This document shows positions 4,386 to 10,458 of a stretch of DNA of 23,873 bases, one piece after another (the stretch's first letter is position 1; each line of letters opens with the position of its first letter). The notes under the pieces were generated by a model. That model saw nothing but the letters and a program-made list of their open reading frames with translations, was not told where the DNA came from and did no database searches. The position numbers and the translations under genes were made by a program. Source of the DNA: a virus; the IMG/VR virus record IMGVR_UViG_3300035034_003473, positions 1 through 23,873 of that record. One strand, given 5' to 3'.

Positions 4386-5540
4386 ATGAATTTACAAGAC
4401 GTAATAAAAGAAGCTAAAAGCAAATTTGAAGACCGTATATGTTTGGAAGGAAACTATCAATGGAATGGAAATTCCTTAGATTATAATAAACTAAAAAGCT
4501 TCATATTAGAATCTGCTCAACCAGGAAAAGAAATCTTAAATTTAGGTTGGCAAAAAGAAGGCTTCTGGGTTTGGATCAATGAAGTTTGCACTACCTCTGG
4601 AAGAAAGATTAAGATTGATGATTATGGTTTTTTTAAAATAAAAAACACTTCATACTTTGTGCCTAGCGCATTAAAAAAACCTCTAAATGCTTATAAATAC
4701 CAAAAACAAATTGCCTGTGTTTCCAAAAATGCATCTATAGATTTTAATTTCCTTACTCATACAGTGAAGCAAGTACACGGTGAGCAGGCTATTATTGGAG
4801 TGTTTTTTGCAATAGCTTCCATATTTCAAGATGTAGTTGAGAAACAACTTTATTTTTTTCCGCATTTATACTTGTATGGTCAAGATGCAACTGGAAAAAG
4901 TTCGCTTTCAAATTTATTAACCTCTTTTTTTGGAGAATGTAGACCTGCTTATGAAGGAGGCACAACCAATCAAGATTTGTTAATTATAAAAGACAACGAG
5001 ACTATTAACGGAATAAATTCTTTTCAAGATTGCTTACCTGCGAACAAAAACTTAGAAACCTTTTTTAATAGAGGTTTTCGTAGGGTTGGTTTTTACAACG
5101 AAAGATTAAATACTTATGGTAAGTCAAATTCGTCTTGCATTGTAATAAGCAGACACTTACTTTCTTCTGAAATAATATCTAAATCTATTTTGTTAGAGAT
5201 GTATAACAATAATAACGATGAAGGTTTCATACAGCTAAAAGAGCTTGCAAAAAAGACCCTCACAGAACACACCAATTACTTTTTAACCAAACGAGATAAA
5301 GTAGAATCACAGTTTTTAGAAAAATATCATTCATTTAAAGATTCTTTAATTTCAAATTCTTTAATAACTGACAATAGAATAATTTCAAATTATGCCGTTC
5401 TAGCCGCCATTTATGACATTGTTGTATTTGAAGATCATAACCTGCCTGTTTTTGATGTACTAGGCATTATGACCAGAGCGGCAAACAATCAAACTTCTAA
5501 ATTAAATATGGTTTTTTTTAACGAAAAAATGAAAAAGTAA
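4386..5540 (+). CDS. Stand-alone P-loop ATPase, paralogue of the phage helicase domain
   Basis: A 384-residue protein colinear with residues about 580-930 of the primase-helicase at 6662-9976. Shared landmarks are GNYQW near the N-terminus, LGWQ.EGFWVW, the HG..GI.G..FA..SIFQD..V segment before the ATPase motif, and the Walker A LYGQDATGKSS (K171, S172) against LYGPASSGKDQ in the large protein. It lacks the primase part and the C-terminal extension. At the place of R835 in the large protein (ALITRLIW) it has K266 (EIISKSIL), possibly a lost arginine finger. It may form mixed rings with the helicase, load it, or regulate it. It overlaps the next gene by one base (TAATG) and follows the DUF4406 scar. 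Confidence 0.75.
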   Translation: MNLQDVIKEAKSKFEDRICLEGNYQWNGNSLDYNKLKSFILESAQPGKEILNLGWQKEGFWVWINEVCTTSGRKIKIDDYGFFKIKNTSYFVPSALKKPLNAYKYQKQIACVSKNASIDFNFLTHTVKQVHGEQAIIGVFFAIASIFQDVVEKQLYFFPHLYLYGQDATGKSSLSNLLTSFFGECRPAYEGGTTNQDLLIIKDNETINGINSFQDCLPANKNLETFFNRGFRRVGFYNERLNTYGKSNSSCIVISRHLLSSEIISKSILLEMYNNNNDEGFIQLKELAKKTLTEHTNYFLTKRDKVESQFLEKYHSFKDSLISNSLITDNRIISNYAVLAAIYDIVVFEDHNLPVFDVLGIMTRAANNQTSKLNMVFFNEKMKK

Positions 5541-6672: not shown

Positions 6673-9600
6673 TAAAGATACGATAGACAAAGTATTTGAA
6701 ACGGCAGATATAGTAGAAGTCATTTCAGAATTTGTAACACTAAAAAAGAAAGGAGCTAATCATTTTGGATTGTCCCCATTTGTAGACGAGAAATCTCCTT
6801 CGTTTTCCGTTTCAGAAGTAAAAGGAATTTGGAAATGCTTTTCTTCAGGAAAAAGTGGAAGCAATGCGGTTAGTTTCCTTATGGAAGCCCAGCACATGAG
6901 CTACCCAGAAGCTGTTAAACACATTGCAAATAAATACAGTATTCCTGTAGTGGCAGAAAACGCAGCGCAAGCTAAAGTATATGAAGAAAAGCAGCAAAAA
7001 AAGAAAGACCTGCTACCTTTAATGGATGCGTGTATCAAAAAATTTGAAGATGCTTTTTGGAAACTTCCCGCAAATCACCCGGCTAAAATAGAAGTGTTTC
7101 AAAAACGCCAATATACAGAAGAGCTCGCTAAAGAATTACGCATTGGCTACGCTCCTGGTCACAGATATATTTATGACGTCTGTGTGGAGAATGGCAGAAA
7201 GCAAGATGCAAAGGATTTGTTCTTAATTACAGACGAAAAAGACAAGTGGGTTAACCGAGTAATATATCCATTTGTAGAAGTATTTGCAGGTAAACCCAAG
7301 CCTGTGAGCTTAGCAGGTCGTAGCCTAAGCAAAGATAAGAAGTACGCAAAATGGATAAATTCTATGAATACAGAGCTGTACCAAAAGGATAAATTCTGGT
7401 ATGGAATGCATCTTGCGAAACACAGCATTGCTAAGTCTAGAACGGCTTGGGTAGTCGAAGGCTATAACGATGTTATTGCTTGGCAGCGTTTTGGCATACC
7501 AAATACAGTTTCGCCTTGCGGTACAGCAATTACAACAAACCAAATCAAAATGCTTCGGAAATTTGCAGACTATGTTGTCTTTTGCTTAGACCCAGACAAA
7601 GCAGGGACTAAAGCTATGATTAAGCAGATTCAACAATTCTTAAAAGCAGATTTCAGATGTTATGTAGTTGAATTGCCTTACGTGCAACAACCATATTGTA
7701 ATCTTAAAAAAGTAGAACAAAAAGACTTAGCGCCTTTAAACATTAATAAAAAAACAATTTCTCTTCCTAAAAAACCAGACCCAGACGATTACGTTAGATT
7801 AATACAGGCAGTAGATGAAAATTCACTAGACCACATTAACAACAAGAAGTCTTGGAAAGATGGTTTTAGATTCTTATTAGAAAACAAAAAATCGCACGAC
7901 GAAGTTGAAAACAGACAAATGGCAAATGAAATGTTGTCTCTTATTTCTTCCATAAAAGATGATGGTATGCAGGACATTTACTTGAAGTGGTTAGCAAAAG
8001 AATCTGGGACTACACAGGCTAAAATAAATTCGTTATTTAAAGAACTGGAAAAACAGCAAGAAGTAACTCCGCAGGAAAGAATAAAAGATAAGCTGGATAA
8101 TTACAACTTATATGAAATGCCTGAAGATGTAAAAGAACCGCTAGAAAAGTATATTAAACTCATACAGAAATACAGATTGTTTCAGGCGAATAATAAAATA
8201 TATGTGCAGTATGGAGAAAATCCGCCCTATGGTTTTAAGGCGGTTTCTAATTTTTCTATTGAAATTATTCAGCACATGGAAGATGAAGATCGTTCTAAGA
8301 AATTAGTTCGTATAAAAAATACACACAACAAAGAATCGGTTTTTGATGTAGACTCTGCTTTGATGAACAAACCTAGCACCTTTGAAGATGTTATTACCCT
8401 ATACGGAAACTACCAGTGGAAGGGCGACAGAAAAGAACATCAATTACTCAAATTTTATTTATTTGACTTCATGGGTACTGGTAGACAGATAGATGTGTTA
8501 GGTTGGCAACCTGAAGGATTTTGGGTCTGGAATAACTTAATTGTTACAGAACACGGAGAGAAATTGGAAATTGACAAAAACGGCTGCTTTAGCCACAAGG
8601 AAGTGGCGTATTATATCCCTTCAGCAAATCGCATTTACATTAATAATCCGTATAAATACCTGCCACAAAAGAGTTTTTTAAGCATCAAGACAGAGGCTAA
8701 TTTCTTTGAAGTTTGCAAAATGGCTAACCTGGTACATGGCAACCACGGTATTATGGGAATTTTGTTTGCCGTATCTTCAATTTTTCAGGACATTGTAGTT
8801 AAGCATTTGAGCTCGTTCCCTCTTTTGTTCTTATATGGTCCAGCTTCATCTGGGAAAGACCAACTAGCTTCTATGATTAAATCTTTTGTTGGCATACCGC
8901 AGGTTTCAATTAACCTAGAAGGAAACGCTAGTACCCAAAAAGGAAAGATACGTGAGCTGGCACAGTTCTGCAATGGGATTTCTCAATATAGTGAATATAA
9001 ACCGGGCAATCCGGAACTAGACGGTATGCTCAAAGGGGTTTGGGATAGAGATGGATATAAGACGGCGAGCATCACGAGCCGTATTTCCATGAATTCTGTT
9101 CCTGTCTTGAGTTCTGCAATTGTTACTGGTAATTACGTTCCTGACCAAGAGGCATTAATTACACGGCTTATTTGGAATCTGATGGACAAAGGCGTTTTTT
9201 CTGAGGAAGACGAAAAGAACTTTCAAATCCTTTCAGATTACGTTCAAAAAGGATTTTCCTCTTTAACAAACGATTTACTGAAGCATAGGAAATTAGTGGA
9301 AGGTAACTTTGTCTTTGTGTACAGAAATATGAAGAAGCTGCTGAAAGAACTGAAACCAAACGCCAATCCACGTATGATTCAAAATCTTTCGGTTTTAGGT
9401 TCGTTTTACAAGTTGCTTTCAGATCATGTAGATTTCAGCTTTAATTTAACTAGCATTATTACCATTTTCGAAAAAATAATAGATAGCCAAATGAATAAGC
9501 TTTCTTCTGCAAGTTTGGTGAACAAGTTTTGGGATTGCTTCTTAGCGAGTATGCGTGGTAGTTACTCAGACAGATTAGAATTAGGAAGAGATTATGCACT

Positions 9601-9976: not shown

Positions 9977-10048
9977 TTTTTTTTACTCTCCCTGCTACCC
10001 TAAGAACAAAAATACGAGCCATAAAAAAATATGCGAGGTGTTTTTTAT

Positions 10049-10245
10049 ACTGAGTTTACTGATGTTTTATAAGTTACTGTATATTAATAAGTTAAGTATA
10101 AAAAGGTATCAGTAAGGTACTCAGTAAGTGTCAGTAAGTATCAGTAAGTCAATTTCACTTACTGATACTTACTGACACTTGCACAGCCATTTTTTTTTAT
10201 AACTTGCTGTATTGTAATAAAGTAAGTGTACTCAGTAAACTCAGT
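10049..10245. repeat. Outer 14-bp inverted repeat around the iterons
   Basis: ACTGAGTTTACTGA at 10049-10062 and its exact reverse complement at 10232-10245 flank the inner inverted repeat. The two repeats have centres only about 6 bp apart (10147 and 10153). Confidence 0.75.
10126..10180. repeat. Perfect 24-bp inverted repeat with 7-nt spacer
   Basis: Arms 10126-10149 and 10157-10180 are exact reverse complements around the spacer CAATTTC. Each arm contains two copies of the TCAGTAAG unit, 10 bp apart. As RNA it would be a very stable hairpin. A run of nine T begins 9 nt after it, so partial terminator activity for the replication operon cannot be excluded. Confidence 0.85.
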
Positions 10246-10257
10246 AAGATTTAGACC

Positions 10258-10458
10258 ATGTTTATTTTAAAAAAGCTTAAAAAAATGTTTTCATCCTCAG
10301 AAGTCAAGCAAATAGTACAAAATTGCCAAAATATAGAAGAGCTTATCCAAGTTTCAGATAGCTTGGGTTGGCTTTTTGCACAAGGATTTATCAATTGTTA
10401 TTATAAGAAATCATTTTTAGGATTTATTCTGATGCGAATGCTGGAAATTTCAGATTAA
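10258..10458 (+). CDS. Small hypothetical protein between origin region and late genes
   Basis: A 66-residue protein with a basic N-terminus (FILKKLKKMF) and a mostly helical body. The Cys residues in QNCQN and FINCYY are not arranged as a metal site. No family is recognised. It is placed directly after the repeat region and just before the first GTCACAY-type promoter. It could be a regulator or the start of the late region; the location is the only hint. Confidence 0.5.
   Translation: MFILKKLKKMFSSSEVKQIVQNCQNIEELIQVSDSLGWLFAQGFINCYYKKSFLGFILMRMLEISD

Follow-up and report, generated by a model that had tools for sequence, protein, structure and literature searches.

Which function is served by an array of short repeats that fills a gene-free gap directly behind the primase-helicase gene of a virus of Bacteroidota bacteria? 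The window, i.e., the whole stretch of DNA analysed here, is a linear virus record of 23.9 kb and, therefore, not a whole genome. It encodes a tyrosine integrase, a DnaG-type primase-helicase fusion and structural genes, with a head maturation protease, an endolysin and a large virion-type protein (phrog_21862) among the structural and lysis functions. Among annotated phages, Flavobacterium phages of the Duneviridae come closest, and isolated members of this family are among the relatives; the comparison with Unahavirus and Labanvirus that bears on family membership covers the primase-helicase, which is ~40% identical to that of Flavobacterium phages 23T, 1H and laban6-1, together with the gene order, which is similar. 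Based on the architecture of the array, its relatives, the fold of the adjacent protein and the covariation between the two, we consider it highly probable that the array is a phage replication origin of the PICI/SaPI kind and that the primase-helicase acts as initiator, helicase and primase in one.

An earlier, sequence-only reading had described about nine copies of the unit TCAGTAAR, three of them at 10-bp spacing, in a gap without genes. This array is real: nine exact copies are contained in 10055-10248, the spacing of those at 10121, 10131 and 10141 is exact, and no credible ORF is present in the gap 9977-10257 between the primase-helicase gene and the next ORF (10258). Across the whole window, 13 copies are found, compared to 2.8 expected and a maximum of nine in 100 shuffles; the four copies outside the array are at about chance level. 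A tenth, degenerate copy (TCAGTATA) is located on the minus strand at 10046-10053. The array begins 70 bp behind the stop codon of the primase-helicase gene. The array region has no match in Rfam, and an exact search of viral contigs with the window's own iteron string returned 0 matches, because the unit differs between phages.

Table 1. Features of the proposed origin and its presumed initiator gene in the window (<, reverse iteron; >, forward iteron; AT, AT-rich element).
Feature	Position	Strand	Basis or remark
Exact TCAGTAAR, forward	10109, 10121, 10131, 10141, 10232, 10241	+	exact string count
Exact TCAGTAAR, reverse	10055, 10158, 10168	-	exact string count
Left outer reverse iteron pair	degenerate TCAGTATA 10046-10053 + 10055-10062	-	9-bp spacing
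AT-rich element 1, proposed melting site	10063..10104	+	between << and >>>>; direct-repeat copy 10065-10100
Core forward iterons	10109, 10121, 10131, 10141 (10109..10148)	+	spacing 12, 10, 10
Core reverse iterons	10158-10165 + 10168-10175	-	oppose the forward set over a short spacer
AT-rich element 2, proposed second melting site	10190..10230	+	direct-repeat copy 10195-10230
Right outer forward iteron pair	10232-10239 + 10241-10248	+	9-bp spacing
Whole proposed origin	10046..10248	.	<< AT >>>>. << AT >>; recognised by rule in 43/46 arrays
Primase-helicase, 1104 aa	6662..9976	+	Pfam/NCBIfam, AF2 model, PDB matches, iteron covariation

Central to the organisation of the array is a 36-bp AT-rich direct repeat (10065-10100 / 10195-10230, 81% identity), which is absent from the sequence-only reading and by which the array resolves into two tandem modules, each composed of reverse iterons, an AT element and forward iterons. 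Across loci, the mean GC content is 15% in the left and 22% in the right AT elements. That reading had instead put the emphasis on two nested, nearly concentric inverted repeats. Both were found—a perfect 24-bp inverted repeat (10126-10149 / 10157-10180) with a 7-nt loop centred at 10153, and an outer one (10048-10062 / 10232-10246) centred at 10147—and the array region folds much more strongly than its shuffles (z -8.4 as DNA). However, it is not the nested palindromes that are conserved, given that the longest perfect inverted repeat of an array measures 11 bp in the median and the 24 bp of the window are the maximum; they arise because opposing iteron sets face each other. Conservation concerns how iteron sets and AT elements are ordered and oriented.

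That the palindrome is best read as a by-product of facing iteron sets also speaks against selection for a hairpin or terminator. A transcription terminator, or an RNA or DNA hairpin between early and later genes whose stem the repeats merely serve, would fit the very stable 26-bp stem of the window (-46 kcal/mol as RNA, z -11), the T run shortly downstream of it and the two co-oriented genes flanking the array. Yet only the window and a few relatives have the long stem, whereas conservation extends to the direct iterons, the outer pairs and the AT elements; the palindrome is not listed by a terminator scan, and a hairpin leaves unexplained the outer iteron pairs, which lie 60-100 bp away and carry the same changing sequence. 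We, thus, regard this explanation as very unlikely.

The repeat architecture beside the primase-helicase gene had been predicted to persist in homologous phages even as the sequence drifts, which was borne out very strongly. In each of the first 20 relatives of the primase-helicase (20/20), an array closely follows the gene on its 3' side, and its repeats clearly differ in sequence. A second scan yielded 48 viral loci. In 43/52 loci, the 8-mer with the most copies in the locus is found in the 420 bp 3' of the gene, at a level beyond every control stretch; among the remaining nine, four have the array displaced further downstream behind inserted genes (L153, Cellulophaga phage Ingeline (L025) and the Porphyromonas phages L026 and L027) and in the others the array is in place but more degenerate. 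When motifs were sought de novo locus by locus, the same arrangement was recovered repeatedly, and an automatic rule assigned 43/46 arrays to << AT >>>>. << AT >>, i.e., a pair of flanked AT modules; near relatives are included in this number, and 34 remain at >15% protein distance. In a held-out set of seven prophage loci from Flavobacteriaceae genomes, fetched later, five contain an array with the conserved layout directly after the gene, and no array is present directly 3' of the gene in the other two (L170, L171). The doubled PICI/SaPI-type iteron origin is, as judged from these loci, very probably the norm across a broad group of Bacteroidota phages comprising the Duneviridae and relatives.

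In contrast to the layout, the iteron unit itself differs by phage: TGTCAGTAA in the window and TGTAAGGAA, TGTTGGAAA, TGTAGAAAT, TGTTGAGAA, TGTCCGAAG, TGTGGAAAG and others elsewhere, with the held-out locus L168 having yet another iteron of the CAGGATGTG type. The general form is TGTNNRNAA, with variable middle bases. Beyond these phages, an alignment-based scan of genome contigs mostly returned chromosomal DnaG and a single useful prophage-like locus (L030), and no array was found beside the gene of a Microcystis phage primase (H33). The megaplasmid pPP1 of Persicobacter psychrovividus (1.07 Mb) encodes a DnaG-fused relative with an array at the same place (L164:5715-5870), which is simpler, comprising a single AT element and TGAGGAAA iterons, and which perhaps represents an ancestral single module. 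Apart from the primase-helicase, no neighbouring gene family is found beyond 22/41 loci. The small ORF directly after the array of the window (10258-10458) belongs to a family present in 15/41 relatives at a similar position.

The N-terminal part of the primase-helicase is a DnaG-type primase with CHC2 zinc finger, DnaG_N and Toprim domains (Pfam/NCBIfam). The helicase half is not recognised by Pfam, which matches the primase alone, and was identified solely by fold comparison. An AlphaFold2 model of aa 500-1104, built with 41 sequences (mean pLDDT 86), comprises an AAA+ helicase (~aa 500-960) like that of SaPIbov1 Rep/Cch and a predicted C-terminal winged helix (~aa 978-1069). It aligns nearly end to end with SCCmec Cch (PDB 5dgk; 462 aa, Z 26.2) and SaPIbov1 Rep (PDB 8tch; 450 aa, Z 24.1), followed by MCM proteins at Z<15. 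The modelled C-terminus consists of two strands, helices at aa 989-1004 and 1011-1019, wing strands at aa 1024-1034 and 1037-1045 and a last helix at aa 1052-1069, an arrangement which reads as a winged helix. The primase-helicase is the likely initiator that reads the iterons. In Flavobacterium phage 6H (L028:2426-6366), the primase-helicase is annotated as three ORFs, while it is a single ORF in the close relatives 1H and D35; the split may reflect real frameshifts or sequencing errors. Furthermore, the window contains a 384-aa ORF (4386-5540) that is similar to the helicase half (phrog_22657, E 4e-35) and reaches approximately to the end of the AAA region; it seems to be a truncated paralogue devoid of the winged helix.

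In PICIs, an ori in which an AT-rich region lies between two iteron sets comes after pri and rep, which are sometimes fused; among known bacterial replicons, the authors who described this organisation found no other example (PMC6092414). The C-terminal domain of SaPI Rep recognises an iteron origin directly downstream of the rep gene (PMC7581432). The sequence-only reading of an iteron-type replication origin gains support from the conserved layout and the Rep/Cch-like neighbour, while the possibly undescribed design it suggested is not wholly so: the organisation matches that of PICI/SaPI origins (PMC6092414, PMC7581432). As in the PICI/SaPI replicons of SaPIbov1 and EcCICFT073, the ori lies immediately 3' of the initiator gene (displaced in a few relatives), and two iteron sets flank AT-rich DNA, in the phages twice per array (43/46). 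The primase adjoins or is fused to the initiator in PICI/SaPI replicons, and CHC2, DnaG_N and Toprim are part of the same ORF in the window; the initiator of this replicon type is a self-loading helicase of the Rep/Cch kind, whose fold the modelled helicase half matches over 450-462 aa at Z 24-26. C-terminal DNA binding is established for SaPI Rep, where the window has a predicted winged helix that covaries significantly with the iterons, as does a LuxR-type gene. The sequence identity to Cch and Rep is 8–12%, and these proteins match the helicase half alone, to which the window adds the N-terminal DnaG-type primase. Unlike PICI/SaPI replicons, the phage replicon has a doubled flanked-AT module and a DnaG-type primase fused to the initiator. 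The system of the window would work like a PICI replicon and shows the anatomical features tested, but is not a PICI—a helper-dependent satellite—because the phage carries its own structural genes; its relatives are complete tailed phages with capsid genes of their own.

The comparison with SaPIs and PICIs is based on published work and on a control region of what appears to be EcCICFT073, the element tested in PMC6092414, which was identified from the genes it contains (integrase, primase-type gene, PerC regulator and capsid genes) rather than from an annotated name. There, 3' of the initiator-type gene, an array of similar kind is found, with GGTAGACA iterons in the order << AT > <<..>>; this initiator is of the D5/DUF5906 type, i.e., of a different helicase family. 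Type-specific reading of iterons by phage initiators, as proposed here, is also a feature of phage P4 alpha with ori and crr and of lambdoid O proteins with their ori. P4 alpha is likewise a fused primase-helicase, but of a different type, with ori and crr lying apart; lambda has its iterons within gene O, whose product is no helicase.

With overall protein distance regressed out, aa 1025-1064, comprising the wing and the last helix, best track iteron divergence (partial r 0.44, family-wise permutation p<1/3000), whereas the partial correlation of the primase and the AAA core averages slightly below zero. The segments aa 525-564 and 655-694 likewise exceed chance, so that specificity need not reside in the winged helix alone. 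L145 and L152 share 36% protein identity and a nearly identical, unusual unit (TGTCCGAAG/TGTCCGATC); their mutual similarity ranks high at ~aa 870-920, from aa 1020 onward and in the helicase at ~670-720 and 795-845, but not across most of the protein. Since phylogeny is not fully modelled and the permutation test leaves some of it in, the covariation counts as support for recognition, not as proof. The iterons are most likely read by the winged helix of the fusion between DnaG primase and Rep-like helicase.

A comparable but weaker signal, unique among the neighbouring genes, comes from a LuxR-type regulator located upstream in 22/41 loci, whose divergence follows iteron divergence (partial r 0.36, p 0.007). 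It raises the question of whether the array is an operator for a phage regulator of the LuxR/GerE or XRE type controlling the downstream genes. This seems very improbable: the regulator is not found in nearly half of the array-bearing loci (some contigs being cut upstream), the winged helix reaches 0.51 in the same phages, and an operator explains neither the AT elements between inverted iteron sets nor the match to the tested PICI origin segment.

By analogy with the published relatives, initiation at the proposed origin would proceed as follows. The C-terminal winged helix would bind the ~10-bp iterons on one face of the DNA helix, and the AAA+ helicase would assemble on the iteron sets flanking each AT-rich element; melting of these elements would allow loading of oppositely oriented hexamers, whereupon the fused DnaG-type primase would provide the first primers for the host polymerase. 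Binding, melting, hexamer loading, bidirectionality and the roles of the two modules are all modelled on these relatives. A turn of the cumulative GC skew, also predicted for the array, is absent in the window and in four complete relatives, where the skew follows gene orientation; because nearly all genes run one way, its absence is uninformative rather than refuting.

Two further functions were considered. A site for a site-specific recombinase (attP arms or a dimer-resolution site) is brought to mind by L153 (about 7207-8150) and Cellulophaga phage Ingeline_1 (21703-22494), two divergent phages with a second tyrosine recombinase gene between primase and array, but is most improbable, as no recombinase was noticed beside the array in the other loci examined, the architecture is unaffected by its presence, and the window's own integrase (744-1928) is 8 kb away. 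Equally remote is an iteron incompatibility or partition site in place of an initiation site: plasmids can use 10-bp iterons in tandem for copy control or partition, but no partition gene family was seen among the shared neighbours or in the window scans, and initiation is favoured by the AT-rich elements and by the initiator-like helicase encoded next to the array.

With a PICI/SaPI-type origin, the fast and joint change of iteron and winged helix could, tentatively, constitute a replicon-identity code by which co-resident prophages do not fire each other's origins, although we consider this rather doubtful. No replication origin is annotated in the phage records of these relatives that were examined, and nothing on point was found in the literature on Duneviridae origins or on iterons in Bacteroidota phages. 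The family provides >40 initiator/iteron pairs of the same geometry but different sequence and, hence, lends itself naturally to studying site choice by a winged-helix initiator. Moreover, a replicon organisation thought peculiar to satellites would extend to complete phages, which bears on the source of the PICI replication module.

A minor feature of the primase-helicase family is a proline-phenylalanine tip at the C-terminus, present in 28/52 homologues and mostly acidic (EDLPF, DELPF, DDLPF; e.g., L110:7172-7189 and L120:7172-7189), whereas the window protein ends in EYPE. These tips resemble that of bacterial SSB (DDDIPF), which recruits replication proteins.
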